DNA of 35,526 nucleotides from Mycobacterium sp. (GTDB lineage Bacteria; Actinomycetota; Actinomycetes; Mycobacteriales; Mycobacteriaceae). Of the stretch, positions 1,031 to 35,526 are shown piece after piece. The notes beneath the pieces were generated by a model. That model did not search any database, was not told the origin of the DNA, and saw only the letters and a program-made list of their open reading frames with translations. Where the stretch lies: the NCBI GenBank assembly GCA_025965975.1, contig JAOPVX010000212.1, forward strand, positions 1 through 35,526, in the 5' to 3' direction. The position numbers were made by a program, and so were the translations under genes. The stretch's first letter is position 1; each line of letters starts with the position of its first letter.

Positions 1031-2857
1031 ATGACCGAAGTAGACAACGATGCTCCGACCGCCGCCGGGTTGGACGACTTGGGATTCGATCCGGAGGCAT
1101 TGCGGGAGAGGTATCGCCAGGAACGCACCAAGCGCCTTCGCCCGGAAGGTGTCAACCAATATGTCGAAGTGAAGGGCGACTTCAGCAAGTATCTGGACGC
1201 TCCCTACCCAGACCTCGACCCTCATTTCACACGCGCGGCGGTAGACGAAGAGGTCGATGTATTCGTCGGCGGCGGCGGCTTCGCCGGACTTTCGATGGCC
1301 GCTCGCCTTCACAAAGCCGGCTTCGAAAGTATGCGGATCGTCGAAAAGGGCGGTGACTTTGGCGGGGCCTGGTACTGGAACAGATACCCCGGTGCACAGT
1401 GCGACATCGAATCCTACTGCTACTTACCGCTTCTCGAGGATACGGGATACATTCCCAAGGAAAAGTACTCCTACCGTCCGGAGATTTTCGAGCACGTCCA
1501 ACGAATTGCGAAAACGTTCGATCTCTACAGGTACGCGTTGTTGCAGACCGAGATCACCGAGATGCGCTGGCTCGAGGACGAACACCGGTGGCTCGTCGAG
1601 ACGGACCGTGGCGACCGGATCCGCGCAAGGTTCGTCGTACAGACCAACGGAACCCTTGATCGTCCGAAGCTACCGGGGGTGCCTGGCATCGAGACCTTCA
1701 AAGGGCACACGTTCCACACGAGCCGCTGGGATTACGACTACACCGGAGGAGACACCACCGGCGGACTGACCAAACTAGCCGATAAGCGCGTCGCCATTCT
1801 CGGGACCGGAGCCACCGCCGTCCAGTCCATCCCATTCCTCGGACGGCACGCAAAGCATCTCTACGTCGTTCAGCGCACACCCGCGTCGGTCGACGAGCGC
1901 CGCAACGCACCGACCGATGCGGAGTGGGTGAAGTCGCTAAAGCCCGGTTGGCAAAGCGAGCGCCGCCGCAACTTCACTTGCCTGGTCTCGGGTGTGCCAC
2001 AGGACGTGGACCTCGTCAGTGACGGGTGGACGGACGCCGTGCGCAATGTCGGTGGGTTTTGGCAGACTAGCGACCGCGCCGGATCCGTCGAACAGCGCAA
2101 GCGCGCGATGGAGCTCGCAGATTTCAAGAAGATGAACGAGATCCGTGCCCGCATCGAATCGATCGTCGAGGATCCCGTGACGGCCGAGGCTCTCAAGCCG
2201 TGGTACCGCCAATTCTGCAAGCGACCGGCATTCAATGATCACTATCACGAGACCTTCAATCGCCCCAACGTCACGCTCATCGACACCGCAGGTCGGGGCC
2301 TCGACGCGGTGACCGAAAAGGGCTTGATGTTCAACGGCGTCGAGTACGAAGCCGATTGCATCATTTTCGCGACCGGTTTCGAAGTCGGAACGGCATGGGC
2401 GCGCCGCATGGGATTCGAGACGCACGGCCGCGACGGCAAGAAACTGTCCGACGAGTGGAAAGGCGGTCTCCGGTCACTGCATGGCTTCTACTGCCACGAC
2501 TTTCCAAATCTGTTGCACATGGGAGTGAACCAGAATGGGCAGTCATTCTGTGCCACCTACTCACTCGATGAACAGGCGGAGCACATCCTGTCGGTACTCA
2601 AGTACGCGCGTGATCGCAACGCGCGGCTCATCGAGCCGACCGTTGAGTCAGAGAAACGCTGGGTCGAGATAATCCGCGAGAAGTCGAGTGCGTCTAGGGA
2701 GTTCCAAGCACAATGCACGCCCAACTGGCAGAACAGTGAGGGAAGCACAGCACCCGGGCTCAATGACGAAATCTATGGCGGCGGCCCCGTTGAATACTTC
2801 GACTTGCTTCGCGCGTGGTGGGAGGACGACCAAATGGAGGGCCTCAATGTGCTCTGA
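1031..2857 (+). CDS. Baeyer-Villiger monooxygenase, long N-terminal-extended type
   Basis: 608 residues from ATG 1031 (weak upstream AGGGAC). Flavin monooxygenase that would insert oxygen next to a ketone carbonyl, giving an ester or lactone with FAD and NADPH. Seen: an N-terminal extension with the RERYRQERTKRLRPEG pattern (residues about 25-40), a first dinucleotide-binding motif GGGGFAG (80-86), the BVMO fingerprint FxGxxxHxxxWD with F223, G225, H229, W233 and D234, and a second motif GTGATA (258-263). The length and extension resemble the cyclopentadecanone monooxygenase-like group rather than the shorter cyclohexanone type. It lies four bases after the small dioxygenase-associated gene, in one operon. 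A second, related BVMO lies on the other strand at 14637-16481. The substrate is unknown; a cyclic or aryl ketone fits the context. Confidence 0.92.
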   Translation: MTEVDNDAPTAAGLDDLGFDPEALRERYRQERTKRLRPEGVNQYVEVKGDFSKYLDAPYPDLDPHFTRAAVDEEVDVFVGGGGFAGLSMAARLHKAGFESMRIVEKGGDFGGAWYWNRYPGAQCDIESYCYLPLLEDTGYIPKEKYSYRPEIFEHVQRIAKTFDLYRYALLQTEITEMRWLEDEHRWLVETDRGDRIRARFVVQTNGTLDRPKLPGVPGIETFKGHTFHTSRWDYDYTGGDTTGGLTKLADKRVAILGTGATAVQSIPFLGRHAKHLYVVQRTPASVDERRNAPTDAEWVKSLKPGWQSERRRNFTCLVSGVPQDVDLVSDGWTDAVRNVGGFWQTSDRAGSVEQRKRAMELADFKKMNEIRARIESIVEDPVTAEALKPWYRQFCKRPAFNDHYHETFNRPNVTLIDTAGRGLDAVTEKGLMFNGVEYEADCIIFATGFEVGTAWARRMGFETHGRDGKKLSDEWKGGLRSLHGFYCHDFPNLLHMGVNQNGQSFCATYSLDEQAEHILSVLKYARDRNARLIEPTVESEKRWVEIIREKSSASREFQAQCTPNWQNSEGSTAPGLNDEIYGGGPVEYFDLLRAWWEDDQMEGLNVL

Positions 2858-14636: not shown

Positions 14637-16481
14637 TCAGCGGGTCAGTTCCATGTCCTCGGTCAGACCGGTTTCGCGCCAGTCCTTGAGGATGTCGAAA
14701 TATTCGAATGCGCCGCCGCCATAGGCGGTTGGGAGGATGAGCTTCTTGAGGTCCTTCAAATTGCCCTCGGCGTTCATCAAGCTCGGCGTGCATTGGCGGA
14801 CGTAGTCCAGATTCACCGTCGACTTCTCGTCGATGGTGGCGCACCAGCGGTCTTCGGCCGGCTGGCTGACTTCCATCACCTGAACGTCATCGCTCAACAA
14901 GCGCGAGACAACTGCGGCCGCGTGGAGTGCCTGTTCGTCGATTATCAACGGGAAGTTCACGGTCGGTGCGCTCTGGCGAGTGCCGACGAGGAAAAACAGA
15001 TTGGGGAATCCGCGCGTGTACATTCCGTGCAGTGACCGCACGGCATCCGACCATTTCTCGTCGATGTTTTGACCGCCGCGTCCGAGTATCTCGATACCCC
15101 CTTCCTTGTGGGAGGTGGTGACGAGCTCAAAGCCGGTGGCGTAGATGATGCAATCGACCTCGTGGACCTGGCCATCGAATACGATCGCGTTCTCGGTGAT
15201 GCGGTCTAGTCCCCGCCCTCCGGTGTCGATGAGTTTGACATTTGACCGGTTGAATGTCGGTAGATACTCGTCACTGAATGTGGGGCGTTTGCAAAATCGA
15301 TTGAAGTAGGGTTTCAGAGACTCCGCTGTCGCGGGATCGGTGACGATCGAATCGACCCGCGCCCGGATCGCCTCCATCTTCTCGATGTCCATCCTCTGGA
15401 TGGCAGTGGCCACGTCATCGGGATCGGCGCCGTGCTCCGGTGGCGGTGGGGGCTCCCAGACCTGAGTCCACTCGTCAGCGACGAAATCTTCGTCTGCCCG
15501 GCCGGTGAGAACCATCTCGAAGTTGGCCATGCGGGCCTTCTGCCAACCGGGTTGCAGTGATCGCGCCCAGGCAGAATCGGTGGGCTTGTTGTTGCGGGCA
15601 GCCACCGCGGCGGGTGTACGCTGCACGACGTACAGCTCCTTCGCCCACCGCCCGAGCGGCGGCACGCATTGGATAGCGGAGCAGCCGGTGCCGATCACTG
15701 CGACCCGCTTGTCCGCAAGGTTGGTCAGCTCACCGTTCTCGTCGCCGCCGGTGTAGGTGTAATCCCACCGTGCGGTGTGGAACGACGCGCCGGTGAAGTC
15801 CTCAACGCCCGGGATTGCAGGCAGCTTTGGGTAATTCAGCTGGCCGTTGCCGACGAAGGCGAACCGCGCTGTGAGGGTGTCGCCGTGATCGGTACTTGCG
15901 ATCCATCGGGAGGCATCCTCATCCCACCGCAGCTCGGAAACGCGGGTGTCAAAGATGGCGCGTGAATGCAGGTCGAATCGTTCGGCAACCGCCTGCACCT
16001 GGGCGCGGATCTCCGGCGCGGCCGCATACTTCTCGGTGGGCATGTAGCCGGTTTCCTCGAGCAGCGGGATATAGCTGAAGGACTCGACGTCACAGCGGGC
16101 ACCGGGATAGCGATTCCAGTACCACACGCCACCGAAGTCAGCTCCGGACTCCACGATGCGGAAGTTGTCGACGCCGGCCTGGCGAAGGCGCGCGGCCGTC
16201 AGCAACCCCGACCAGCCACCGCCGACGATCACCACATCGACCTCCTCGTGAACCGGCGCGTGCTCACGCGGCGGCGCGGCATTCGGATTGTCGAGGAAGA
16301 AACGCGCCAGTTCTCCTTGTGTCCTTCGGTATTGGTCGACGCCGTCGGTGCGGATTCGTTTTTGCCGTTCCTCGCGATACTTCTCGAGCAGTGCGGCCTC
16401 TTGGGCCGACAGCGCTTTCGTGGCGTCGGCGCTTACTGATCGTGTGTGCGGGCTCTCAGCTGATGCGCTACTGCTGGACAA
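14637..16481 (-). CDS. Second Baeyer-Villiger monooxygenase
   Basis: 614 residues. The start is TTG at 16481-16479, because no ATG or GTG precedes the conserved KYREERQKRIRTDG segment (34-47); an AAAGGG about ten bases upstream is a modest ribosome site. Motifs: GGGWSG (87-92), BVMO fingerprint with F229, G231, H235, W239 and D240, and GTGCSA (264-269). It shares the long N-terminal extension and many blocks with the BVMO at 1031-2857 (for example WYWNRYPGA, and SLKPYFNRFCKRP compared with ALKPWYRQFCKRP), so the two are paralogues, but they are clearly diverged. It heads a minus-strand unit with the VOC and FAH genes; the gap to the VOC start is 71 bases. Different ketone substrates or successive steps are plausible. 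Confidence 0.92.
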   Translation of the reverse strand: MSSSSASAESPHTRSVSADATKALSAQEAALLEKYREERQKRIRTDGVDQYRRTQGELARFFLDNPNAAPPREHAPVHEEVDVVIVGGGWSGLLTAARLRQAGVDNFRIVESGADFGGVWYWNRYPGARCDVESFSYIPLLEETGYMPTEKYAAAPEIRAQVQAVAERFDLHSRAIFDTRVSELRWDEDASRWIASTDHGDTLTARFAFVGNGQLNYPKLPAIPGVEDFTGASFHTARWDYTYTGGDENGELTNLADKRVAVIGTGCSAIQCVPPLGRWAKELYVVQRTPAAVAARNNKPTDSAWARSLQPGWQKARMANFEMVLTGRADEDFVADEWTQVWEPPPPPEHGADPDDVATAIQRMDIEKMEAIRARVDSIVTDPATAESLKPYFNRFCKRPTFSDEYLPTFNRSNVKLIDTGGRGLDRITENAIVFDGQVHEVDCIIYATGFELVTTSHKEGGIEILGRGGQNIDEKWSDAVRSLHGMYTRGFPNLFFLVGTRQSAPTVNFPLIIDEQALHAAAVVSRLLSDDVQVMEVSQPAEDRWCATIDEKSTVNLDYVRQCTPSLMNAEGNLKDLKKLILPTAYGGGAFEYFDILKDWRETGLTEDMELTR

Positions 16482-19160: not shown

Positions 19161-19370
19161 ATGGATGAACTTCCGCTTGCGCTCCCCCGGCCTCGGGGCC
19201 TGTTCGGTCCTCTGCTGGAGCTCATCGCCCGGCGCGTGCGCGCCGAGGTCGGAGTCGGAGCTGGCGAACTTCAATCGCAGGCGCCCGTGCGGCTTCGACG
19301 CCCGGAGCGCCGCCTCGGCCGGGTTCGAGCCAGGCATCCCACTAATGATATGTGCTATGCATATCATTAG
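19161..19370 (+). CDS. Doubtful small open frame
   Basis: 69 codons from ATG 19161 to TAG 19368-19370. The first 30 residues (MDELPLALPRPRGLFGPLLE) look protein-like, while the rest is arginine-rich and ends in the inverted repeat. There is no ribosome site. It could be the start of a broken gene or chance; I recognise no family. Confidence 0.2.
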   Translation: MDELPLALPRPRGLFGPLLELIARRVRAEVGVGAGELQSQAPVRLRRPERRLGRVRARHPTNDMCYAYH

Positions 19371-19372
19371 TG
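19340..19372. promoter_or_regulatory. Perfect 13-bp inverted repeat upstream of the LLM oxidoreductase
   Basis: CACTAATGATATG (19340-19352), 7-base centre, CATATCATTAGTG (19360-19372). The arms are perfect complements, AT-rich, and end 103 bases before the LLM start codon. AT content argues for a protein-binding operator rather than a terminator. The half-site start CACTAATG also occurs once at about 16784 upstream of the second BVMO. Confidence 0.65.
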
Positions 19373-19474
19373 AAGCACGCTTTACCGCGAGGAGGTACGC
19401 CCGATCGCCCACGGACATGCCCGTTCAGCTCTCGAATTCGTGAGCTTCCACAAGACATCGACAAGGAGCAGGCA

Positions 19475-20536
19475 ATGACCCTCCAGCAGTTCGAGTTCGG
19501 ACTGGATGGCGCTGTCCACGTTAGTGTCGACGAGTCCGGTCAACCGGTGGACGGTGACGTCGTTATCCGGAACACCATCGAAGAGGCCGTCTTGGCGGAG
19601 GCGGTCGGTATCGACTCGTTCAATATCGGCGAACATTACCGTCGCGACTTCATGGATTCCGCGGGACACGTGATCCTGGCAGCGATCGCCGGCCGGACCA
19701 AACGCATCCGGTTGGGCACCGCTGTGACCGTGCTGAGTACGCATGACCCGGTTCGGGTCTACGCCGACTTCGCGACACTGGACGCGGTGTCGGACGGCCG
19801 GGCGCAGCTCATAGTCGGCCGCGGTTCGCTAACCGATTCATTTCCTCTATTCGGATTCGACCTCGCCGACTATGAAGCCCTGTTCGAGGAGAAACTGGAC
19901 CTGTTCGTTCGGCTACTGCGTGATCAGCCTGTCACGTGGTCCGGCGCTTTCCGCCCCGCACTGAACAACCAGTACGTCAGCCCCCCACTTCGGCCGGGCC
20001 ACCTCCCGACCTGGATTGGTGTGGGTGGCACTGCGCAGTCGGCGATTCGGGCCGCGCGCTACGGGCTCGGCCTCATGCTTGCGCTCGTAGGCGGACACCC
20101 GCGCCGATTCAGACCACTTGTCGACATATATCGGAAAGCGTGCGAACAATTCGGCCACCCACCGTTGCCGGTCGGGCTACACGCGCTCGGATATGTCGGC
20201 AAGACAGATGAACAAGCGGTTGAGATTCAGTATCCCCACTGGGCGGAGATGATGAGCCGATCCGCGCGCGAGCGCGGCTGGCCGCCTCCGTCGAGGGACA
20301 GGTTCCAGTCCGATGTCGATGAGGGTTCATTGCTAGTCGGTTCGCCCGATACCGTCGCGACGAGGCTGGCGGCGACGATCCAGCGTCTAGGACTAAAGCG
20401 TTTCGATCTGGCTTATGCGCTGGGCCGAGTGCCCCATGAGCAGAGGCTCATAACGATCGAACTCTACGGACGCGAGGTGATTCCACGCGTCCGTGAGCTG
20501 CTCAGCACGCCTGCCGCTAACCCAGCATCGGCCTAA
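19475..20536 (+). CDS. LLM-class flavin-dependent oxidoreductase (luciferase-like)
   Basis: 353 residues from ATG 19475, behind AAGGAG. Luciferase-like monooxygenase (TIM barrel) features: EEAVLAEAVGIDSFNIGEHYRRDF, RIRLGTAVTVLSTHDPVRVYADFATLDAVSDGRAQLIVGRGS and PTWIGVGGTAQSAIRAARYGLGL. The group uses FMNH2 or F420; mycobacterial members are often F420-dependent, but the cofactor cannot be decided here. The late GSPDTVATRLAA segment is typical. The gene stands alone after a perfect inverted repeat that may control it. It is oriented away from the decayed region at 20.5-21.9 kb. Substrate unknown; a role in the same catabolic locus is possible. Confidence 0.9.
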   Translation: MTLQQFEFGLDGAVHVSVDESGQPVDGDVVIRNTIEEAVLAEAVGIDSFNIGEHYRRDFMDSAGHVILAAIAGRTKRIRLGTAVTVLSTHDPVRVYADFATLDAVSDGRAQLIVGRGSLTDSFPLFGFDLADYEALFEEKLDLFVRLLRDQPVTWSGAFRPALNNQYVSPPLRPGHLPTWIGVGGTAQSAIRAARYGLGLMLALVGGHPRRFRPLVDIYRKACEQFGHPPLPVGLHALGYVGKTDEQAVEIQYPHWAEMMSRSARERGWPPPSRDRFQSDVDEGSLLVGSPDTVATRLAATIQRLGLKRFDLAYALGRVPHEQRLITIELYGREVIPRVRELLSTPAANPASA

Positions 20537-21237
20537 AGAGGCCGCCCCCGTGCGGTCATTCATCGACTTCACCGTTTTCATGGCCCAATGACGACCTTGG
20601 CTTAAACGGCGACTGTACGGCCCCGGTAAAGCGCGCGGCGTTCTGCTTGATCAGCTGTCGGTGTTGACATCAGCGATCGATCCGTTCCGAGCGAGCATGA
20701 GTAGCGGGCGTCGCGTTGGTGAGTCCGGCAATCGACCGATGGCGGACAAGGACATGATTACAGGCAAGGAGGCCCGCGCGTCGAGGTGCATAACAGACAC
20801 CGGCACCCGTGCGTGGTGATGTCACCGGCGGGCGAGCAGTTCGCTCAGACCAGGCGCGCGCTCAGGACGTGACAGGGCGGCGCTTGCGCGCCGGCCGCAC
20901 TGTCCCGGTGGTCGGACTTGCCGCGGTGTCGGCCTCATTCCGCGGTGCACCCACACAGGCCGAACCGGTGAACATGGCGCGTCAGCACCTACTCCAAGAA
21001 GTTGCGTGACGCGTGGGACCTGGCGATCTCCATCGAACACCAAACGGTGAACTTGGTTGCTCAGGAGCAACGCGTCGCTTGACTGTAAAACGCGAATCGC
21101 ACTGACTCGATGTCGAACCGGCGGAGTGCTTAGGTACGGGTTTCGAGCGCAGTTCAGGGGGTGAATGCCACTTTGAAGCGGTGGTGTTGACCGCTCGACC
21201 TCGCGGTGGCCGATTTAGGGGAAGACGAGGCGAACCG

Positions 21238-21307
21238 TGTTGACGACGGTCCAAAGGTAGGCCAGCGGCGACGGGGCTACTGGTCCCCTCTTCAACCGTC
21301 GTCAACA
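21238..21307. repeat. 70-bp element bounded by a perfect 13-bp inverted repeat
   Basis: TGTTGACGACGGT (21238-21250) and ACCGTCGTCAACA (21295-21307) are perfect complements, 44 bases apart. A shorter GGGG/CCCC pairing lies between them. It may be a folded RNA, a large operator or the remains of a small mobile element; no flanking direct repeat was identified. Confidence 0.5.
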
Positions 21308-21420
21308 AACCGACGCGGTCAATGAGAGCGCTATCCGTTTCATGCACTGTCGCGAGCCACCGATAGTGGCGAAACGGCTCCAGCGCGGCGTACGAGTGGT
21401 CGGAGCGCGAAGTCCGTAAC

Positions 21421-21457
21421 GCCTCGGATAACGGAGCTGCGTCAGCGTTACCGAGGC
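21421..21457. repeat. Hairpin with one bulge
   Basis: GCCTCGG-A-TAACG (21421-21433) pairs with CGTTACCGAGGC (21446-21457), giving 12 base pairs with one bulged A and a 12-base loop. Its function is unknown; it could be a terminator for an upstream relic or a leader structure. Confidence 0.4.
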
Positions 21458-21666
21458 AATGTGACCGATCCCACACTGCTTTGGTCTCGACTCTTTGCGT
21501 CACGAGCGGACAGGAGTAAGCCAATGACTTTCGACGGTGGTATGGAAAGGTCTGCCGTGACCGCGTTCGCTGCACCGGCGGTACGACCGCACAATGCCCT
21601 CGGCCGTGGCCAGTTGCCGGGCGGGGCGCCCTCGACTGTGCCGAGAGTCCCGCGGGACACCTCGAC

Positions 21667-22615
21667 GTGAGCTATCACAGCGGCTGTGGCGTTGCGCCGT
21701 GCACCTGCCATGGCGATTACCCGCCTGAGATCCATCGGGCGGTCGGGATCGATGGTGTTAACAGTGTTCGCCGCGCTGACGGAGACTTCGGTTGCAGTGC
21801 GGTCGTCGTCCGGCCCGATCTCCATTACATGGCTCGGTTGGCGATGAAGTCGTGCGGAGGGTTGGGGCCCGGGGTGTTTCATCCAGAGTTGCCGCTCAGC
21901 ATCAACGATGTTTCGGTCGGAGGTAGGCATGGCACGAATCGATGAAGGTTTGGTGACCTACATCGACACATCAGGCCATCTGATCTTGGCCGACGTCGAA
22001 CTTCTGCCAGCGCGTTCCTTGCGCGACGCGACAGTTCTTAACTGCTCGATGGCAAGTACCGCGCCCGCCGGTGGCGCGGTGGTCCCCATTCGCCCCGCGA
22101 CCGCGAAATACGATTTGGGGCACGACCCCGTCGTGGCCCACTCCACCGGACTTGTGGTCGAACAGGTGAGGCTGGTGGTCGGGGGCCACCGTCGTCTCGA
22201 CGATGTGACTTTCACAGCACGCCCGAGCACGTTGACCACGAACATCGGTCCTTCCGGCACGGGCAAGTCCACGCTGATCAAGGTGCTGGCCGGCGCAACG
22301 GCGCCCAGCGCAGGCCGCGTTCGTTTCGATGGCCAACACGTACATGCCGAGTACGCCTGTCTGCGGACGCGGATCGGTGTGGTCCCGCAAATCGATGTGG
22401 TGCATCCTCAACTTAACGTCGAGCAGGGGCTGCGGTTCGCCGCCGAGTTACGACTACCCGGCGCATCAGCGGTCGTCCGCGAAAGCCCGGTTATCCGGGT
22501 GCTGGGTGAATTAAAACTGTTGGCGCACCGCAAGACTCGCGTCGACAAGCTCTCGGGTGGCCAGCGTAAACGACCCTCGGTCGCCATGGAGCCCTTGACT
22601 GGAGGAAGGTCAGCG
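21667..22615 (+). pseudogene. Decayed FHA-ABC ATPase gene (Rv1747-like), truncated before Walker B
   Basis: The reading frame from about 21667 carries a worn FHA domain (for example SVRRADGDFG, then RPDLHYMARLAMKSCGG, then INDVSVGG). A frameshift near 21930 moves the match to the next frame (MARIDEGL). From 22165 an ABC ATPase follows: EQVRLVVGGHRRLDDVTFTARP, Walker A GPSGTGKST, HAEYACLRTRIGVVPQ Q-loop region, and signature LSGGQRKR. Matches to Rv1747-type FHA-ABC exporters are close but several conserved residues are changed (VVPQID, KRPSVAMEPL). Homology stops just after EPLTG, before Walker B, D-loop and H-loop, so no ATPase activity is expected. The open frame continues into yrbEA without a stop. 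Confidence 0.75.
22601..22609 (+). promoter_or_regulatory. Strong Shine-Dalgarno at the ABC-relic/yrbEA join
   Basis: GGAGGAAGG lies six bases before TTG 22616. It begins where the FHA-ABC homology ends and decides the yrbEA start. Confidence 0.65.
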
Positions 22616-23554
22616 TTGACGGCACACAGCACTGCGGCGAGTCCCGAGGTTCACGCGGACACCCCTGATGTAGCAGGAAACCCGCGCGACGACGCGATCG
22701 CGCACTCGCTCAAGACGGAACATCCGTTGGCACCCCTTGGCCGCCGGCTACGCGGCACCGTCACGAAGTTCGTCCGCACGCCGCTCGACAGTGTCGCAAC
22801 GACGGGGCGGGGGGTCATGCTCTTCGCCGCAGTGCTGCGTTACGCCGTGACCGATGCCCTGTCTCTTCGCTTGCCACTCGGCGAAGTCATCGTCCAAGCG
22901 TGGACCCTTTACAAGGTTACGGCGTTGCCAGCCATCATGATGGCGATTCCGTTCGGTGCCATGGTTGCCGTCCAGGCGTCTGGACTGATCAATCAGGTGG
23001 GAGCGAACTCACTGGTCGGAGCCGCCAGCGGAGTGGGCGTCGTGCGCCAGGGCGCGCCGATCACCGCAGGGCTGCTGATGGGTGGCGCCGCAGCTGCCGC
23101 CATTGCATCCGACCTCGGTGCGCGGTCGATACGTGACGAACTGGATGCACTGCGGGTGATGGGAGTCGACCCGGTTCGTCATCTCATCGTGCCGCGCTTC
23201 CTGGCGTTGATCATCCTCGCCCCCATCTTGTGCGCGGTCATCCTTGCCTCGGCCGTGCTGGCGTCCTTCCTGCTGGCAATCACCGTCAATGATGTGACGA
23301 GCGGCAGCTTCTGGGCGTCCTTCGGCGCGTTCGCGAAGATGGTCGATGTCTGGTTCGCCATAGGCAAGGCAACGGTGTTCGGAGCGATCGTTGGAATCGT
23401 CTCGTCGCTCAGGGGGATCGAGGCCAAGGGTGGACCACGCGGTGTCGCGGATGCGGTTAACGCCGCCGTCGTGATCAACGTTGTCGGGATCGTCGTCGCG
23501 AACCTCGTGATCACCCAATTGCAGACGATGTTCTTTCCCATGCAGGTCGCCTGA
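22616..23554 (+). CDS. yrbEA: YrbEA, MlaE-type permease of a Mce lipid importer
   Basis: 312 residues if started at TTG 22616. The open frame continues upstream to 21908 through the ABC relic, so a 548-residue fusion cannot be excluded, but the strong ribosome site favours TTG. After a variable N-terminus (to about residue 35) the MlaE permease core follows: multiple hydrophobic helices, ALPAIMMAIPFGAMVAVQ, GLLMGGAAAAAIASDLGARSIRDELDALRVMGVDPVRHLIVPRF (the conserved EExDAL-type coupling segment), and C-terminal helices. It forms the inner-membrane channel together with YrbEB and is energised by an ATPase (MceG) that is usually encoded elsewhere. Its stop overlaps the YrbEB start by one base. 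Confidence 0.88.
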   Translation: MTAHSTAASPEVHADTPDVAGNPRDDAIAHSLKTEHPLAPLGRRLRGTVTKFVRTPLDSVATTGRGVMLFAAVLRYAVTDALSLRLPLGEVIVQAWTLYKVTALPAIMMAIPFGAMVAVQASGLINQVGANSLVGAASGVGVVRQGAPITAGLLMGGAAAAAIASDLGARSIRDELDALRVMGVDPVRHLIVPRFLALIILAPILCAVILASAVLASFLLAITVNDVTSGSFWASFGAFAKMVDVWFAIGKATVFGAIVGIVSSLRGIEAKGGPRGVADAVNAAVVINVVGIVVANLVITQLQTMFFPMQVA

Positions 23555-24426
23555 TGTCCGTGCTAGCGTCGGGCCGCCATGCCGTGCCCGCCTTCTACTT
23601 TCGCAGGCTGCGCACATCGAGAGATGCCGTTCAGGGTGTCTTCCGAAACATCGGGCAATGGATCGTCTTCACCGGACAGGTCATCTTCCTTCTCCCGCTG
23701 ACAGTCCGTAAGTATCGCCGGGAGACGCTGGCCAGAATGAACAATCTGGCCTGGGGCCGCGGATCATTGGTCGTCGACGGCGGCGTGATTAGCGTCTTGA
23801 TCATTCTGGGTCTGGCGATCGGTGCGTCGATAGCAATCGAAGCGTTCGCGACGTTGAACCTGCTTGGATTCGGCGCGATGTCGGGAATCGTTGGAGGCCT
23901 CGCGAACGTGCGCGAGATGGCGCCCCTCGTGGCCGGCATTGCCTTTGCTGCGCAGGCCGGGTGCCGGATGACCGCAGAAATCGGTTCGATGCGGATCGCG
24001 GAGGAGATCGACGCCGTCGAGGCGATGGGACTCAGGCCCATTCCGTTCGTCGTGGGCACCCGCCTCATCGGCGGGATGTTGATCGTGATCCCAGGGTTTC
24101 TGCTCACACTGCTGGTCAGCTTCTTCACCTCGAACACCATGATCAAGGTCTTCTACAGTCAGCCCGCCGGAACCTACGAGCACTACTTCGTCCAGTTCTT
24201 GTCACCCACCGATCTCGCCTACTCGACGGTCAAGGCAGCCATCTTCTGCGCCGCGGTGACGATAATCCACTGCTATTACGGCTATTTCGCTTCGGGCGGA
24301 CCAGTGGGAGTGGGCCTCGCGTCTGGGCGAGCGGTTCGGGCGAGCTTGGTGGCCATCATGGTGCTGGACTTGATCATGACGATCTCCCTGTGGGGGCTCA
24401 AGCCGACCTTCGTGTTCAAGGGCTAG
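23554..24426 (+). CDS. yrbEB: YrbEB, second MlaE-type permease
   Basis: 290 residues, ATG 23554 overlapping the yrbEA stop (TGATG). The core shows GASIAIEAFATLNLLGFGAMSGIVGGLANVREMAPLVAGIAFAAQAGCRMTAEIGSMRIAEEIDAVEAMGLRPIPFVVGTRL, with the EEIDAVEAMG ATPase-coupling loop typical of MlaE proteins, and about five to six hydrophobic helices. It pairs with YrbEA as a heterodimer in the cytoplasmic membrane. The N-terminal 50 residues form a basic amphipathic segment. Twelve bases separate it from mceA, so cotranslation of the importer operon is likely. Confidence 0.92.
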   Translation: MSVLASGRHAVPAFYFRRLRTSRDAVQGVFRNIGQWIVFTGQVIFLLPLTVRKYRRETLARMNNLAWGRGSLVVDGGVISVLIILGLAIGASIAIEAFATLNLLGFGAMSGIVGGLANVREMAPLVAGIAFAAQAGCRMTAEIGSMRIAEEIDAVEAMGLRPIPFVVGTRLIGGMLIVIPGFLLTLLVSFFTSNTMIKVFYSQPAGTYEHYFVQFLSPTDLAYSTVKAAIFCAAVTIIHCYYGYFASGGPVGVGLASGRAVRASLVAIMVLDLIMTISLWGLKPTFVFKG

Positions 24427-24438
24427 GAAGTTCATTCG

Positions 24439-25584
24439 ATGACTGCGCTACTCAGAGGGTCCGACGCCGACCAGACTCGTACGCTCAGCCGAATCGGCGC
24501 GGGCGTCGCGGTGTTCTTGGCCGTGGCAGTCGTGGTTTACCTCGTCGCCGACCCGTTCGGAGGCACACCGAAGAACGTCATATCCGTAGCCCTCGAAACG
24601 CCATATGTCGGACAGGGCGTCGCCGCTGGCACACCGTTGATCATCCACGGAGTCAAGGTCGGTGAGGTGACGACGCTCGCCAGTGCGCCCGGCGGCGGCG
24701 TTCGACTCAACGCCGACTTGCAGTCGGGGTCCACGACCGGGCTGACGGACGCCATGGGCATCGACTTTCGCCCGGCCAACTACTTCGGTGTCACGGGCAT
24801 AAACCTGATACCCGCCGATGGTGGGCGGCCGCTTCGCAATGGCACCGACATCAGCCTCACGCCCAAGGGGAACTTCGCCCTTCAGGCGCTGCTATACCGC
24901 CTCGGGGAGCTGTCGAACCAAGTGATCACGCAGCGCCTGATCAACGTCGTCGAGCGCGCCACTCGTTACACCGACGCACTGAATCCGCTGCTGGAAACGA
25001 TGATCATCGTCTCGACGACCGCTACCAACGTTCAGACTGTCAGCACCGCGCAACTACTGCGCAACGCCACCGGCACGAGCGTGGCGCTCCCAGGATTCAT
25101 CGACGCAATGGTCGATACCGGTGATCATTACTTGAAGACCAAGATTGGCGTCAAGGGATCCTTCAATGCCGAAGAGGACCTCAAAAGCAATCCATACGTG
25201 TCGACGTACGACGAAGCGCAGAGGGCGTACTACGACTCTGCGCGAAAGATGTTCGAGTCGGATCCGGACAAGGTCACTTACGGCAGGTACAAGGAGTGGC
25301 TCGTCGGCGCCGAGACCGACCTCTTCAGCAAGGTCGGAAAGTTGCTGTCATCGCATGTGTACGAACTGTTTCCCGTCGTCGAAGAGATTCGTGTCATGTC
25401 CGACGTCGTCCCCAGGCTCATCAGTCCCGTGGACATCGGCGATACCCTGCGGGAGCTGCGCACACGGCTCGAGCACATGTACGCGGGATCGGGAGATCAG
25501 CGCGCGCTGCAGGTGCGTGTGATCTTGGATGCACTGCCAGGCCAAGCGGGACCGCTTCAACTGGCATTGGGGGCAGCGGGATGA
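24439..25584 (+). CDS. mceA: MceA-family lipid-binding protein
   Basis: 381 residues from ATG 24439, 12 bases after yrbEB. One N-terminal anchor helix (GAGVAVFLAVAVVVYLVADP, about 20-39), then the MlaD/MCE domain beginning NVISVALETPYVGQGVAAGTPLIIHGVKVGEV (about 46-77). The remainder is the alpha-helical Mce C-terminal domain that stacks in a needle-like tunnel with MceB-F. As the first of six mce genes it is assigned MceA by position. Its stop overlaps the next start by four bases (ATGA). Confidence 0.9.
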   Translation: MTALLRGSDADQTRTLSRIGAGVAVFLAVAVVVYLVADPFGGTPKNVISVALETPYVGQGVAAGTPLIIHGVKVGEVTTLASAPGGGVRLNADLQSGSTTGLTDAMGIDFRPANYFGVTGINLIPADGGRPLRNGTDISLTPKGNFALQALLYRLGELSNQVITQRLINVVERATRYTDALNPLLETMIIVSTTATNVQTVSTAQLLRNATGTSVALPGFIDAMVDTGDHYLKTKIGVKGSFNAEEDLKSNPYVSTYDEAQRAYYDSARKMFESDPDKVTYGRYKEWLVGAETDLFSKVGKLLSSHVYELFPVVEEIRVMSDVVPRLISPVDIGDTLRELRTRLEHMYAGSGDQRALQVRVILDALPGQAGPLQLALGAAG

Positions 25585-26585
25585 TCAAGCCCCTGGGGGC
25601 ACTTTGGCGAATCGTACTCGCCGCAGGGGTGAGCGTCGTGTTGTTGATCGTGATCGCGAACGTAATCACCCAGCCCGTGGACGTCGTGACGCGTACCTAC
25701 GATGCCGAATTCACCGACGTGTCCGGACTGCACGAGGGGGCGGACGTCCGCGTCCGCGGCGTACAGGTCGGCAAGGTCGAGACACTCGCGTTGAAGCGAG
25801 CCGACGGGCGGAGTCTGGCCGAGGTGAGATTCACGATGGACAACCGCTTCAGAGTCGTGCCGACGAGTCGTGTCGCGATCAAGTTTCAGGCACTCACGGG
25901 TCTGCGCTACGTCGACGTGATGGGCACAGCAGACGGTGGCGGGGCAGGCGACGTGATGACGTCTCTGCCAACGGCCATGACTCAGCCCTCTTTTGACATC
26001 ACCGTGCTGTTCAATGGCTTGCAGCCCGTGCTGGCAACGCTGAGCCCGGACCAGATCAACACGTTCACCGACAACGTCGCAACCTTCCTCGACGGCGACG
26101 GCGAGGGGCTCGGCCCCATGCTCGACAGCATCCGCAACCTGACCGCATTGGTCTCGGACCGCGAGCAGGTGATATCGACCTTGGTCCGCAACCTGAAGAC
26201 ACTGGCGGACGGCACCCGCGGCGGATCGGACGAATTGATCCAGATCCTGAAACTCGTCCAGATCCCCATCGACGGCGCCATGACCGTGCTTGACGAATTC
26301 CGGAAGTCACAGCTCTATGGGCCTGACTTCGTATCCCAGGCGGTGCGACTGTTGGACAGCGTTGGCATCAAGCCCGGCATCGACATCGACACTGCGCTCG
26401 ACAAGGCGTTTACCAATGTCTATGACGCGATCGATGAGATGAAACGCGTGCCGGTGATCTGGGAGAACATCGGGCCGCCTTCTGCTGAAGGAGCACCGGC
26501 GCCGTGCTCCAAGGGGCGCGCCGACCTTCCGTTGCCGATGGACGTCCTTCTCAATGGCCGCAAGGTGGTGTTATGCAATCAGTGA
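25581..26585 (+). CDS. mceB: MceB-family protein
   Basis: 334 residues from ATG 25581 (overlap ATGA with mceA). Anchor helix at residues about 9-30 (WRIVLAAGVSVVLLIVIANVI), MCE domain YDAEFTDVSGLHEGADVRVRGVQVGKVETLAL, then helices with heptad-like leucines. A C-terminal region with two cysteines (PCSKGR and VVLCNQ) could form a disulfide outside the membrane. It should be one of six stacked subunits of the periplasmic lipid tunnel. The position is second in the operon. Confidence 0.9.
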   Translation: MIKPLGALWRIVLAAGVSVVLLIVIANVITQPVDVVTRTYDAEFTDVSGLHEGADVRVRGVQVGKVETLALKRADGRSLAEVRFTMDNRFRVVPTSRVAIKFQALTGLRYVDVMGTADGGGAGDVMTSLPTAMTQPSFDITVLFNGLQPVLATLSPDQINTFTDNVATFLDGDGEGLGPMLDSIRNLTALVSDREQVISTLVRNLKTLADGTRGGSDELIQILKLVQIPIDGAMTVLDEFRKSQLYGPDFVSQAVRLLDSVGIKPGIDIDTALDKAFTNVYDAIDEMKRVPVIWENIGPPSAEGAPAPCSKGRADLPLPMDVLLNGRKVVLCNQ

Positions 26586-27550
26586 AGACATCGGTGCGTA
26601 ACCCGATGTTCTGGGGCGTGGCAACACTCGTGATGGTCACCGTGATCGGTTTGGTCGTCGCATGGGTGTACATCAGCCCGCCGGGCCGAAAGATCGTCAC
26701 CTTCTACACCGACGATGCAGTTTCGATCAGTCCCGGTGACACCGTTCGCATCGCGGGCATCGTCGTGGGCGACGTCAAGGATCTTTCGATCGAGCCGAAC
26801 CAAGTCCGGGTGAGGGCGAGTGTGGACAACGACGCCTTCGTCGGAGACCAGTCTCAGGTCGAAGTACGCATGCTCACGGTCGTCGGCGGCTACTACGTCG
26901 CCATCAACTCCCTCGGTGACGCCCCGCTCGGGTCCCGCCCCATTCCCTTGAACCGAGTCACGATGCCGTACAGCCTGATTCGCACTCTGTCGGATACGAC
27001 GAAGATCACCGACAACGTGGCGACGAGGCCGATCAACGAATCCATCGATCAAATGCAGCAGGGCTTGACCGGTTCCAACGCCGATGCTCTCAGTCAACTG
27101 CTCAATGCGGGCAATGCCATCACCGACACGTTGGATCGCCAGCGAGGACAACTGTCGAAGATCCTCGAGCTGTCCAACGAATACATCGCCAAGCTGAACG
27201 ACAACCGCGAACTTCTCGAGTACCTGATATCGCGCGTCTCGATCCTCATGCAGACACTCGTTCTGTACGGGCAGGGTTTTCGCTCCGCGATGGAAGGTCT
27301 TGGCCAAGTAGGACTTCGCCTGGAATCCGTCACGGCCTTCTACATGCCGCATCGCCAAGACTTCCTCGCTCGGGTGCGCGGTGTCTTGGGCGAGCTCACG
27401 ACGATCGCCGACCGCAACGGTTTGGTTGTCCGCGTACTGGGTCGGATACGTGACCGCATGGAACGAACGTTGGCGGCGCAAAATAGTGGTACGCCGCCGG
27501 AACTGCTCGCCACGGACCTGTGCATGCCGACCGAGGGGGCGCACTGCTGA
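26573..27550 (+). CDS. mceC: MceC-family protein
   Basis: 325 residues from ATG 26573, overlapping the mceB stop by 13 bases. Anchor helix FWGVATLVMVTVIGLVVAWVYI (about 12-33), MCE domain starting IVTFYTDDAVSISPGDTVRIAGIVVGDV, then a long helical region (SKILELSNEYIAKLNDNRELLEYLISRVSILMQ). It is clearly shorter than the long MceC of mce1. The C-terminus ends LLATDLCMPTEGAHC with two cysteines, as in MceB. Role as above: subunit of the tunnel across the periplasm. Its stop overlaps the next start by one base (TGATG). Confidence 0.9.
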   Translation: MQSVKTSVRNPMFWGVATLVMVTVIGLVVAWVYISPPGRKIVTFYTDDAVSISPGDTVRIAGIVVGDVKDLSIEPNQVRVRASVDNDAFVGDQSQVEVRMLTVVGGYYVAINSLGDAPLGSRPIPLNRVTMPYSLIRTLSDTTKITDNVATRPINESIDQMQQGLTGSNADALSQLLNAGNAITDTLDRQRGQLSKILELSNEYIAKLNDNRELLEYLISRVSILMQTLVLYGQGFRSAMEGLGQVGLRLESVTAFYMPHRQDFLARVRGVLGELTTIADRNGLVVRVLGRIRDRMERTLAAQNSGTPPELLATDLCMPTEGAHC

Positions 27551-28665
27551 TGGCTCGTCGTCGATCCGGGTACGCAGTAGGTGCCTTGGTGCTGCTCGCG
27601 TTGGGCACCACGTCGTGCGGGAGCCCGCCGCATACGAAGGCATCCGAATTCTGCGCGATCATGTCGGACAGCGTCGGTCTGTACCTCGGAAACCCGGTCA
27701 CCCAAATGGGTTACAAGATCGGAACGATCAAATCGATAGACCCGGAGGCCATGGACGTCCGGATCGGATTTGAGATCACAGACAATCGCGTGATACCGCA
27801 AGACGTCAGAGCCGTCACCCGCTCACCTTCGATCCTGGCCGACCGCTCGTTGGAATTGGTCGGCAACTACGAGGGCGGTCCGCAGCTGAAGTCCGACAAT
27901 TGCATCCCTCTAAGCCGCTCGTCAACCCCGTTGAGCATCTCGAAGGTGATCGGATCGGCGACCACCTTCGTGAACGCCATCAATCCGGATGGATCGAACA
28001 ACCTCAAGGATGCGCTTCAAGGCATCGACCAGGCGGTCCAAGGCAACGGGGCGAAGGCGAATCAGCTACTGACCAGGTCGTCCAGCCTGCTCGACAACCC
28101 GGATCAGACCATCGCCGATCTTGGCGAGATCACCCGGAACATCGCCGAGTTGACGACCATGCTCAGAGCGAATAGAAGCCCGCTCAAGGAAATAGTGCAG
28201 GACTTGCCCACCGTCGGCCCGGACGTTGCGAGAGCCATTTACGGTGCCGCGAATCTGTCTCATCCGCTTCCCGAACTCATCCAGCTGGTCATGGATCTCG
28301 AACTCAAGCTTGGACCCGACATCCAGCTGGCGCTGGATACGGTCACCGAGGCCGTGCGCATCTTGAGCCCGCACTACAAGGGTATCGCCGACATGCTGAA
28401 TCCCCTGCCGCGCTGGATCAGTGGGCTCGCCAACGAGCCTCCCGGGGCGCCCGCAGGCGGAATCGCCAAGCACATCAACAATCACGTCTTCAATCTGCTG
28501 CCGTACCGTCCGCCCCTGTTCCGCATTCCTACACCGAACGGACTTCTCGCTTGCGGATACATGAATGCGTCCTTGCCAGGGAGCTGCGCAGACGTCGGCG
28601 GTCGTCCATACGCGGTGGACGTGGCGCTGCTGCAGTACGTGCTGACAGAGGCGGCGCGGAAATGA
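27550..28665 (+). CDS. mceD: MceD-family protein with a lipobox
   Basis: 371 residues from ATG 27550. The N-terminus MARRRSGYAVGALVLLALG is followed by TTSCG, a lipobox-like cysteine at about residue 20, so the protein is probably lipid-anchored rather than held by a helix. MCE domain EFCAIMSDSVGLYLGNPVTQMGYKIGTIKSI, then RSPSILADRSLEL. The C-terminal region contains NLLPYRPPLFRIPTP. MceD in the M. tuberculosis operons is not usually the lipoprotein, so this is a variation of the standard layout (see findings). The stop overlaps the mceE start by four bases (ATGA). Confidence 0.88.
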   Translation: MARRRSGYAVGALVLLALGTTSCGSPPHTKASEFCAIMSDSVGLYLGNPVTQMGYKIGTIKSIDPEAMDVRIGFEITDNRVIPQDVRAVTRSPSILADRSLELVGNYEGGPQLKSDNCIPLSRSSTPLSISKVIGSATTFVNAINPDGSNNLKDALQGIDQAVQGNGAKANQLLTRSSSLLDNPDQTIADLGEITRNIAELTTMLRANRSPLKEIVQDLPTVGPDVARAIYGAANLSHPLPELIQLVMDLELKLGPDIQLALDTVTEAVRILSPHYKGIADMLNPLPRWISGLANEPPGAPAGGIAKHINNHVFNLLPYRPPLFRIPTPNGLLACGYMNASLPGSCADVGGRPYAVDVALLQYVLTEAARK

Positions 28666-29657
28666 CACGTGGAGTGCGGTCGGCGATCGGCGCGATCATC
28701 TGTGCGTTGACGGTGACGTCGTGCGCGTCGGTCAACATCGACTCAATACCGTTGCCGGGCAGCGACTATCAGGATGGATACGACATCACCGCGGAGTTCA
28801 CCAACGTCCTGAATCTTCCCGACAGGGCGAAGGTGGTGATGGACGGTACCACGGTCGGAGTGGTGACAAAGGTCAACATCGCCAGCGACCACGTCGATGT
28901 CACGGCTCGCATCGCACACGATGTCGAGGTGCCGTCGAACATCAAGGCAGTTCTGCAGCAGGCAACGGTGCTCGGCGATATCTACCTGGGCCTGGACAGG
29001 GGGCTAGAGACCACTTCCGCGGCGGTGCCCTTGCGTCCGGGTGACCGAATTCCGTTGACGCAGAGTACATCACCACCCCAGCTTGAAGACACCATCGCGA
29101 ACCTGGCCAATTTTATCGGCAGCGGATCAATCCAACGCGCCCAGAACACCGTGGTCCGGCTCAACCAGTTGACCCCTCCCAAAGCTGAGGTGCGTCGGGT
29201 GGTCTCGCGGGTCACGACCGACCTTCGGGAATTGTCGGACAATGCCGACAACGTCGATCTGCTGCTCAACAGCCTGTCTGACACGTCCACCGTCCTGGCC
29301 AATCGGACACCGCAACTCAGCGTGTGGTTCACCCACGAGGGGGTAGCCGGCTTCAGTCGAGACATGGTGCTGGCCAACACCTTCAGCAAGCTGCTGCCGT
29401 CGCTCGGCACGATCTACAACGGCGGGTATTGGCTGGTCCCGCTACTCAGTTCGTTGTCAGGCGCCTTCGAAGCCGGCGTAGGTGCGAAACAAGCCGTGGA
29501 GCGCGAGTATCCGCTCTATCGAAACTTCATCAATGACTACTACCTTCGGCAGGAAAAGTATCCCGCGATCAACATCACCTCCATCGTCGGTCCCGACGGG
29601 CGCGAGCTGTCCGGCAACGTCGAACAGGTGCTGAGAATGCTTGGGGCAGTCCCGTGA
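28662..29657 (+). CDS. mceE: MceE-family lipoprotein
   Basis: 331 residues from ATG 28662. Signal peptide IGAIICALTVTSCA with lipobox cysteine near residue 21, as expected of MceE (Lpr-type) proteins. MCE domain YDITAEFTNVLNLPDRAKVVMDGTTVGVVTKV, then AVLQQATVLGDIYLGLD. The helical C-terminal half contains DLRELSDNADNVDLLLNSL and ends with SGNVEQVLRMLGAVP. It would anchor the Mce complex at the outer side of the cell envelope. The stop overlaps the mceF start codon GTG (GTGA). Confidence 0.9.
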   Translation: MTRGVRSAIGAIICALTVTSCASVNIDSIPLPGSDYQDGYDITAEFTNVLNLPDRAKVVMDGTTVGVVTKVNIASDHVDVTARIAHDVEVPSNIKAVLQQATVLGDIYLGLDRGLETTSAAVPLRPGDRIPLTQSTSPPQLEDTIANLANFIGSGSIQRAQNTVVRLNQLTPPKAEVRRVVSRVTTDLRELSDNADNVDLLLNSLSDTSTVLANRTPQLSVWFTHEGVAGFSRDMVLANTFSKLLPSLGTIYNGGYWLVPLLSSLSGAFEAGVGAKQAVEREYPLYRNFINDYYLRQEKYPAINITSIVGPDGRELSGNVEQVLRMLGAVP

Positions 29658-30694
29658 TCGTCAAAGGTCTGGCATCGTTCCTCGCCTTCGCCGCAATGGC
29701 CGTCGGGTTCTTCGCATACATCGGTTCGCTGGGCATACGGGCGGGCGCCCCGCCAGACCGCGCCAACCTCTCGATGGACGTAGCCGACATCAACAACGTC
29801 GTCGTCGAATCGAATGTGTTGTTTCGAGGGGTACCGGTGGGGAAGGTCAGCGGCATCGACTCCTCGGTGTCGACTGCGACCATTCACTTCTACATCGACG
29901 GCAAGTACAAGGTTCCCGCCGACAGCCTCGTCCGGTTGGAGAACCTCTCTGCGCTGGGCGAGAGCTATCTCGAGCTCGAGCCTCAGAGTTCCGGCGGCCC
30001 CGCGTTCCGAGACGGTCAGCGCATCGCGGCGGACTACGTGAAGCAACCACCTTCGATATCCGAGCTCGGCACGAGTGTTGTCCGCGTGCTGAACGAACTC
30101 AACCCCGGCCAGCTGCAAAACGTCATCGACGAGGCCGACACCGGATTGCCGGATCCATACGCCGTGCTGCCCAACCTGCAGCGCGCCAGCCTGCTGCTCC
30201 GCAACACTACGACCGATTTGAATGGGCGAGGCAAGGAGGCGCTCGAGAACGTTCAAAGCCTGCTCGAGAACGCGGGCTTCGTGGGGCCAGCACTGGCCGG
30301 GGCGGCGCCCAGCGTGCGAGACGTGGGACCGGGGATTCAGACGCTCTGGAACAACGGGGCCAACATCATACTGCGCGATGACTCGCCCGGCAGTGTCTAC
30401 GTATTCGGCAAGTTCCTCCAACGAATCCAGAAGATGCTGGACGATCGTGCCCCCGACATCAGGGTGCTGACCGAACCGCTGATGCCAAACATCAATGCGA
30501 TCGCCGCCTCGCTGGCCACCATCGACAGTAGTCAGATTCTTGGCAACCTCTTGGCGGCCGTACCGGCAGACGGCGCGATCAACCTGCACGTGACACTGCC
30601 CGACGCGGCGCCCGGCACGACCCCCGACGGGCAGTCCGGCCCGACCCCCGAAGGGCAGTCCGCCCCGACACCCGAAGGGCAGGCCGGCAACTGA
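29654..30694 (+). CDS. mceF: MceF-family protein with a Pro-rich repeat tail
   Basis: 346 residues from GTG 29654. Anchor helix GLASFLAFAAMAVGFFAYIGSLG (about 5-27), MCE domain LSMDVADINNVVVESNVLFRGVPVGKVSGID, then VPADSLVRLENLSALGESYLELEP. The C-terminus carries three 8-residue units (TPDGQSGP, TPEGQSAP, TPEGQAGN), encoded by three 24-bp DNA repeats. This tail is probably disordered and lies at the far end of the tunnel. It completes the standard six mce genes of the operon. Confidence 0.9.
   Translation: MIVKGLASFLAFAAMAVGFFAYIGSLGIRAGAPPDRANLSMDVADINNVVVESNVLFRGVPVGKVSGIDSSVSTATIHFYIDGKYKVPADSLVRLENLSALGESYLELEPQSSGGPAFRDGQRIAADYVKQPPSISELGTSVVRVLNELNPGQLQNVIDEADTGLPDPYAVLPNLQRASLLLRNTTTDLNGRGKEALENVQSLLENAGFVGPALAGAAPSVRDVGPGIQTLWNNGANIILRDDSPGSVYVFGKFLQRIQKMLDDRAPDIRVLTEPLMPNINAIAASLATIDSSQILGNLLAAVPADGAINLHVTLPDAAPGTTPDGQSGPTPEGQSAPTPEGQAGN
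30620..30691 (+). repeat. Three 24-bp tandem repeats at the mceF 3' end
   Basis: Three units start at 30620, 30644 and 30668, each beginning AC(C/A)CCCGA and containing GGGCAG. They encode the repeated octapeptide and run up to the stop codon, so copy number could vary between strains. Confidence 0.8.
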
Positions 30695-33582: not shown

Positions 33583-35526
33583 CTACGTCGTAGTTGCCAC
33601 TGAGATCGGCGCAGTGTGTGCGTCGGACTGGCGCCGACGATCGTCGGGGCGCTTCGTGCGGAAGGTGTTCAGTGGCCACCAGAACCAACGTCCCAACGCC
33701 GCGGCGATCGAGGGTGTCATGAACGATCGCACGATTAGCGTGTCGACCAGGAGACCGATGCCGATGGTCATGCCGAGTTGTCCCACGACGCGCAGGTCGC
33801 TGACGATCATCGACATCATCGTGAACGCGAACACCAACCCGGCGGCGGTGACGACGCGACCGGTGGCGCCCATGCCGCGGATGATGCCGGTGTTCAATCC
33901 AGCGTGGATCTCCTCCTTCAGCCGCGAGACGACCAGAAGGTTGTAGTCCGACCCGACGGCTAGCAGGATTACCACCGACAGGGGTATGACGACCCACTCC
34001 AAGCCGAATCCCATGATGTCCTGCCAGATGAGCACCGACAGACCACATGCGGTGCCCAACGACGCGGCCACGGTGCCGACGATCGCCAGCGCAGCGACCA
34101 CACTACGGGTGATCACGAGCATGATCGCGAAGATGAGCAGCATCGAAGAAATGCCGGCGATGAGCACGTCCACGACGACACCGTCCTGCATGTCGCTGTA
34201 CATCGACGCGGTGCCGGCCAACGACACCTTCGCAGACTCGAGCGGGGTGCCCTTGATGGCCTCGGCGACAGTGTCCTTGATCCCGGCGACGTGCTTGATC
34301 CCGTCCACCGACGCGGGGTCGCCCTGGTGGGTGATGATGAACCGGACGGCCTTGCCGTCGGGGGAGACGAACATCTTGAGCCCGCGCACGAAGTCGGGGC
34401 TCTTGAAGACCTCCGGCGGCAGATAGAAGGAATCGTCGTTCTTGGCCTCGTCGAAGTATTGGCCCATGAGCGTCGAGCCCTGCGCCAACTCCTGCGTGTG
34501 GGCTTGGATGCCTGCCATCGTGCTGTGCATCGACAGCATGAACCCTTGCATCGTCTTCATCGACGCGATGGTCGGCGGCAGTGTCGCCAACATCTGCGGC
34601 ATCAATCGATCCATCTGATCGAGATCGCCCGTGAGGCCCTGTAGCTGGTCCGCCATCTTGTCGACGCCGTCCAGCGTATCGAACACCGACCTCACCGACT
34701 GGCAGACCGGGATGTCGAAGCAGTGCGGTTCCCAGTAGAAGTAAGCGCGCAACGGTCGGAAGAAATCGTCGAAATCGGCAATGTGGTCACGCAATTCGTT
34801 GGTGGTGTCCACGATGTCGTGTGTCTTACCCGTCATGTCGTGGGTGATCGCGACGAGTTGCTTCATGGTGGCGTACATCTGTTCCATGGTGGCGATGGTC
34901 TTGCTCAGCTCGTCGGACATCAGAAGCATCTGCGCCATGCTGTCGTTGTTGAACTTGGCGGTTTGGAGGGTGCCGGAGTTCTGCATGGCGATCTGGAACG
35001 GGATCGAACTGTGTTCGATCGGCGCCCCGAGGGGTCGGGTGATGGTCTGCACCCGCTCGATGCCGTGCAGGTGGAACACGCTCTTGGCGATGCGGTCGAC
35101 GACGAGCATGTCAGCGGGGTTGCGCACGTCGTGGTCGGCTTCGACCATCAGCAATTCGGGGTTCATCCGGGCTTGGGAGAAGTGCCGCTCGGCCGCTGCC
35201 ATGGCGACGTTGGCGGGCATGTCCTTTGGCGTGAACTTCTCGTCGTTGTATTGGGGAACGTAAGTCAGCAGGCTGACGAATCCGATGATCGCGATCATGG
35301 CAGTAACGGAGATGATCGGGATCGGCCAACGAACTACGGTCGTGCCGACCTTGCGCCAGCCACGCGTGGACAACTCCCGCTTGGGATCGACCAACCCGAA
35401 TCGAGACACCACGGCCAGGACTGCCGGTGCCAGCGTCAGCGCGGCGGCCACGATGACCAGGATCGCGATCGCGCACGGCAGGCCCATGGTCTGGAAGTAC
35501 GGCAGCGTGCACATGGCCAGGCACAT
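33583..35526 (-). CDS. mmpL: MmpL-family RND transporter, C-terminal two thirds (cut by window end)
   Basis: 647 residues visible, stop at 33585-33583; the N-terminus is outside the window. The order is: transmembrane helices to about residue 90, a large extracytoplasmic loop (residues about 90-430) with methionine-rich helices and a pair of cysteines (HCFDIPVCQ), then the C-terminal membrane bundle with [28 protein letters not shown]. The Asp and Tyr of the GSDYN segment correspond to the proton-relay residues of MmpL proteins. The final 50 residues form a basic cytoplasmic tail. Such proteins export mycobacterial lipids. It converges on the mce operon; whether the two act together is unknown. 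Confidence 0.93.

Follow-up and report, generated by a model that had tools for sequence, protein, structure and literature searches.

Does a stop-free frame that carries first an ABC ATPase and then a Mce permease encode a fusion of the two proteins, or does it run through the remnant of a gene into the start of a mce operon? We investigated this question in a window of 35,526 nucleotides (the whole stretch of DNA that was analysed), which is contig C323 of a draft genome of Mycobacterium sp. (7.4 Mb). One stop-free frame of 568 codons was found on the forward strand at 21848-23551, and Pfam places ABC_tran (PF00005) first in it and MlaE (PF02405) second. An earlier note on this DNA had read an ABC frame that continues into a Mce permease without a stop codon, and this reading was correct. 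However, the note had set the start of the feature at 21667, which lies before the first position of the open frame, 21848.

The left part of the window contains two flavin-monooxygenase-like genes (851-2857 and 14637-16481). Genes resembling those for short-chain dehydrogenase, AMP-ligase, aldehyde dehydrogenase, MaoC, thiolase and glyoxalase, a MarR-like regulator gene and a luciferase-like oxidoreductase gene (19352-20536) also lie left of the join. DNA similar to the flavin-monooxygenase-like genes was seen at 437-1539 of locus L068 (Mycolicibacterium sp. P9-22), upstream of its yrbEA. From left to right, the luciferase-like gene is followed by about 1.3 kb without a recognisable gene (20537-21847), then by the ABC piece and then by the mce operon. 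The larger pieces of the gene-free stretch that were tried had no Pfam match, and a search of 61 genomes (E up to 1e-20) returned, beyond its own locus, a single match, which belonged to the ABC part. The same stretch holds an inverted repeat at 21238-21307, with arms of 28 nt that are 75% complementary and outer ends TGTTGACGACGGT and ACCGTCGTCAACA that are exactly complementary; it is possibly an operator or the end of an element. A minus-strand open frame of 229 codons (20985-21671) matched no Pfam family with E of 10 or lower.

The ABC piece is best read as what is left of the 5' part of an FHA-ABC-type exporter gene, which by tblastn of homologues comprises a linker and the ABC ATPase to just before Walker B (22016-22603, forward strand). 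The PF00005 match at 22196-22588 (E about 1e-20 to 3.9e-20) is far beyond chance and covers profile positions 1-121 of 137. Walker A (GPSGTGKST, 22247-22273) and the ABC signature (LSGGQRKR, 22550-22573) can be read directly on the forward strand, as had been reported. The main tblastn alignments end at 22603 for nine homologues and for at least five of the six in a second set. Beyond this point intact homologues continue into PSLLILDEPTSGLDP or a closely similar sequence, which is the Walker B region and is missing from the window; the ATPase thus stops where the earlier note had said. The upstream limit of the remnant is uncertain (21869-22148), and the start of homology depends on the query: 22148 for most, 22016-22025 for L109 and L107, 21947 for L023, and 21869 for L020 and L112.

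We compared the ABC part with exporters of the Rv1747 type, which consist of FHA, ABC_tran and ABC2_membrane. In Rv1747 itself, a pair of FHA domains is combined with a nucleotide-binding part, which has both Walker A and Walker B, and with a membrane part (PMC5549992). Protein identity to the best homologues, L109 and L110, was 67%; L109 has 699 codons from stop to stop, with one FHA, a full ABC_tran and ABC2_membrane. In contrast to such exporters, the window frame has neither a complete ABC ATPase (Walker A, signature and Walker B) nor an ABC2-type membrane domain, and according to Pfam it runs into MlaE instead. When nine homologues were searched against the window by tblastn, only matches with E of 0.07 or worse appeared beyond the ABC part, and no decayed C-terminal exporter half was found. 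The best 25 of 161 NCBIfam rows for the ABC piece were all below their cut-offs. Among solved structures the piece matches many transporters, the best being ABCA7 at 5.9e-16, and these matches name no function.

The earlier note had also seen an FHA domain, frameshifted, upstream of the ATPase. This claim was not borne out. Even with E values as high as 10 allowed, Pfam returned nothing for 21520-21942, 21848-22147 and 21326-21667 or for two frames of the opposite strand, while FHA was recognised in four open homologues at 9.3e-27, 5.3e-32, 3.6e-17 and 6.7e-17. We then aligned 43 pieces with the FHA-side parts of six homologues in a Smith-Waterman shuffle test. The score of the piece in the ABC frame was 42, which 5 of 300 shuffles reached, and several other pieces did no worse. 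The piece 21520-21942, whose frame is the one required by a frameshifted FHA, was outside the ten best of the 43. An FHA-like run noticed by eye near 21880-21940, in another frame, was dropped for the same reason. An FHA part is therefore not demonstrable from these letters, its shuffle score being marginal.

The Shine-Dalgarno-like sequence GGAGGAAGG (22601-22609, forward strand), which had been noted as beginning where the ABC homology ends, does overlap the last homologous ABC codon; the join lies here, and a TTG follows at 22616. From this probable start, yrbEA would encode a Mce permease of 312 amino acids (22616-23554, forward strand). Its MlaE match (E 5e-55 to 1.9e-54) agrees with the note's assignment of the downstream gene. 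The best match in a solved structure is Yrbe1a of 8fed (9.9e-37), and NCBIfam TIGR00056 matches at 2.2e-35, below the curated cut-off. A second Mce permease gene, yrbEB, follows on the same strand (23554-24426, MlaE at 1.4e-54), and then six mce genes (24439-30694, forward strand) at 24439-25584, one ending at 26585, 26504-27550, 27520-28665, one ending at 29657, and 29654-30694. All six have an MlaD domain; the match of the first is 22.6 bits, under the Pfam cut-off of 25.1. Two MlaE permeases and then six MlaD-domain genes is the order of mycobacterial mce operons, and the DNA identity to one of them, at L108, is 68.7% over 7.8 kb. The window operon is unlike these operons only in the gene remnant that lies directly upstream and in frame. 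At the window end, an MMPL-family transporter gene on the minus strand (33583-35526) faces the mce operon.

YrbEA is 64-78% identical to eight aligned relatives, and its length and N-terminus fit theirs. Loci L041 and L046 share the N-terminal pattern MTxTxTG (MTATSTG and MTVTNTG), and the scan for Shine-Dalgarno sequences found none before yrbEA in these two. The closest fetched relative, L051, is 87% identical over YrbEA residues 56-312 and has AGGAAGG before an ATG at the place of GGAGGAAGG. YrbEA thus looks like a normal gene with a plausible start of its own at TTG 22616.

To compare constraint in the two halves, we counted changes at residues that are invariant among homologues. Homologues with fewer matched residues than a set minimum (140 for ABC, 240 for YrbEA) were left out, as were those with stops (in one comparison also those with N), identical copies and the window copies. 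The ABC piece had 10 of 62 invariant residues changed relative to 24 open homologues (140 ungapped codons; four loci duplicating longer fetched ones were also omitted), and each of the 24, left out in turn, had 0-6 changed. With 18 homologues the piece had 11 of 66 changed, against 0-6. In the YrbEA core, none of 73 invariant residues was changed over 250 codons and 43 other loci, each of which had 0-3 changes.

Branch lengths point in the same direction. The terminal branch of the ABC piece at codon positions 1, 2 and 3 was 0.436, 0.318 and 1.203, the longest at positions 1 and 2, and the largest terminal branches among the other homologues were 0.233, 0.136 and 1.057. The GC3 of the piece (0.71) is the lowest, that of the homologues being 0.79-0.96. 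The ratio of positions 1 and 2 to position 3 on the ABC branch was 0.31 (0.20 with fewer homologues), which is a rough value because third codon positions are near saturation. It is below 1, the value that unconstrained decay over the full branch would give; selection thus seems to have acted on the gene for much of this period, with decay setting in later. Among the others, L005 has a ratio of 0.30; L028 (0.51) and L109 are higher, but their branches are too short to judge. Truncated and with its constraint lost, the ABC piece is, as far as sequence can tell, a pseudogene.

We searched for the same join in relatives. Of 31 loci found with YrbEA, 30 belonged to Mycobacterium in the wide sense, and 144 of 148 genomes of the genus matched the junction region somewhere. 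With the window copies left out, there were 64 yrbEA loci elsewhere, and the removal of 13 duplicates left 51 distinct ones, among them a paralogue in the source genome (L002). None of the 51 had an ABC match at E up to 1e-3. Upstream DNA of at least 1000 nt was available for 49 yrbEA loci and of at least 3000 nt for 30, and within up to 3 kb upstream of yrbEA no DNA matched 21848-22615 at E up to 0.01. When the whole window was compared with 30 named loci by blastn, 28 had no match left of 22616, and the two exceptions matched elsewhere (L047 to window positions 15129-15177; L068 to window positions 1351-2438 and 15117-16139, in the monooxygenase genes).

The genome-wide search gave a similar picture. 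Among 396 genomes of the genus, 42 matched at E up to 1e-38, the source genome included. Only the source genome had a match that spans both halves; matches in the 395 others cover the ABC part or the yrbEA part. These 396 genomes were drawn from a larger group, and a close sister may have been missed. A conserved ATPase-permease fusion was thus absent from the 51 yrbEA loci and the 395 other genomes. An uninterrupted FHA-ABC gene directly before yrbEA, the arrangement that the earlier note had named as contrary to its own reading, was also sought in the 396 genomes and 51 loci and was not found. The plasmid search gave 21 records; in none did the match reach 80% of the query, and at least 20 of the 21 match mce permeases or an ABC part. 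No title on such a join was found among those listed for mce operons with pseudogenes and for MlaE/MlaF gene fusions, a check too small to claim absence.

Both parts match separately in two genomes, on different contigs in G329 and about 100 kb apart in G174. In the latter, an open FHA-ABC gene (L107) and a mce operon (L108) lie on one strand and in the order of the window, and a large deletion could join such a layout. A local deletion between neighbouring genes is not claimed, because the flanks gave only a distant match: in 19-kb stretches around FHA-ABC genes of five genomes, compared with left-part window frames of 120 codons or more, only an aldehyde-dehydrogenase-type match of 25-27% was found, in four of the five. 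The join has no direct repeat on its flanks. Five inverted pairs, all of them short (14-20 nt; I2, I5, I9, I13 and I14), place one arm on each side of it.

YrbE/MlaE permeases have ABC ATPases of the MceG/MlaF type as partners, and the window ABC part is not of this type. It is 58, 57, 56 and 52% identical to four FHA-ABC copies of the source genome and 28% identical to a MceG-type gene, which lies separately on contig C422 and was found with the MlaF-type protein of L069. Three of the four copies have the C-terminal half, and the fourth runs off a contig end. The MceG-type gene matches chain G of 8fed at 3.4e-181, a chain that the record names as an ABC ATP-binding protein-GFP chimera. According to a preprint, MceG-GFP was the tagged subunit, the MceG gene lies at another place in the genome, and the various Mce systems are thought to share this protein (PMC9882608).

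Taken together, the join is very probably that of a decaying FHA-ABC exporter stump brought by an ancestral rearrangement to a complete mce operon, with YrbEA translated separately and working with a MceG-type ATPase. The rearrangement (deletion, insertion or recombination) would have cut the exporter gene just before Walker B and left the complete operon directly behind the stump. The stump would then have decayed as substitutions accumulated, none of which has so far put a stop into this frame. Translation of YrbEA, a normal Mce permease, would begin at TTG 22616 behind its own Shine-Dalgarno, and its ATPase partner would be the MceG-type protein whose gene lies elsewhere in the genome. The earlier note had likewise proposed a decaying exporter gene joined to a mce operon and had held a real fusion to be less likely, and the comparison with relatives supports it on both points; the old recombination event that it named would be one of several conceivable kinds. 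Several observations count against a remnant, namely the 256 open codons, the in-frame join, the intact Walker A and signature, the branch ratio that is not 1, the lack of a Shine-Dalgarno in L041 and L046, and the lack of a C-terminal half in the window.

An assembly error, by which two contigs were glued at the join, might be suspected in a draft genome of 449 contigs with a contamination estimate of 4.6%, but we consider it improbable. The join sits inside a contig of 35.5 kb, and the G+C content is even on both sides (0.62-0.65 over 21750-23249). The other copies of the ABC part found in the genome have an identity of 67-71%, and the junction is spanned by no second match, so there is no near-identical repeat that could have misled the assembly.

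A real fusion would be translated as an ABC half-domain on the N-terminus of YrbEA. Its role would perhaps be regulatory or one of docking, because no ATP hydrolysis on its own is expected without Walker B. The frame, open from 21848 and with Walker A and the signature kept, speaks for this reading, and the whole of 21848-22615 was open in only 13 of 2000 dinucleotide shuffles. However, this stretch includes the coding-derived ABC part, and 152 of the 256 codons before yrbEA derive from a coding gene. The first 100 codons (21848-22147) were open in 254 of 2000 shuffles, an in-frame join occurs by chance in one case in three, and opposite-strand frames over family-supported genes in the window reach 360 and 408 codons. 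The open frame by itself is thus weak evidence.

We also simulated neutral change from homologous ABC segments over the 140 aligned codons, which are not all of the 256. At 0.05, 0.10 and 0.20 changes per site, these codons stayed open in 0.68, 0.48 and 0.23 of runs, and on average 6.4, 12.1 and 21.5 invariant residues were changed. The observed 10 fit about 0.08 changes per site. Since at matching divergence roughly one neutral run in two keeps the 140 codons open, the open frame was rejected as a sign of selection; together, the simulation (140 codons) and the shuffles (100 codons) make it compatible with neutral decay, and selection is not needed.

Against the fusion stand the loss of Walker B and of everything after it, the changed invariant residues, an ABC part nearer to FHA-ABC genes than to the MceG-type gene, the lack of ABC at all 51 yrbEA loci, the ribosome site of yrbEA itself, and the MceG-type gene elsewhere in the genome. 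With Walker B absent and MceG encoded elsewhere, a fused half-ATPase would not be needed and could not work by itself. We therefore regard a translated fusion as highly improbable. It is less probable still that the frame is used and that a catalytically incomplete exporter-type ABC half-domain on the N-terminus of the Mce permease competes with MceG or modulates it at this single transporter. That the stump is kept as a leader, carrying the yrbEA promoter or coupling its translation, has the slightest chance of all: it lies directly upstream of yrbEA with no separate intergenic region left, but a scan for sigma-70-type promoters gave no promoter-like site, and the relatives examined have no similar DNA upstream of yrbEA.

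The remnant reading also bears on annotation. The frame at 21848-23551 is most likely an ordinary gene remnant that continues into yrbEA, and not a new fusion protein. A gene caller that takes the longest frame would annotate here an ATPase-permease fusion, a protein that the cell most likely does not make.
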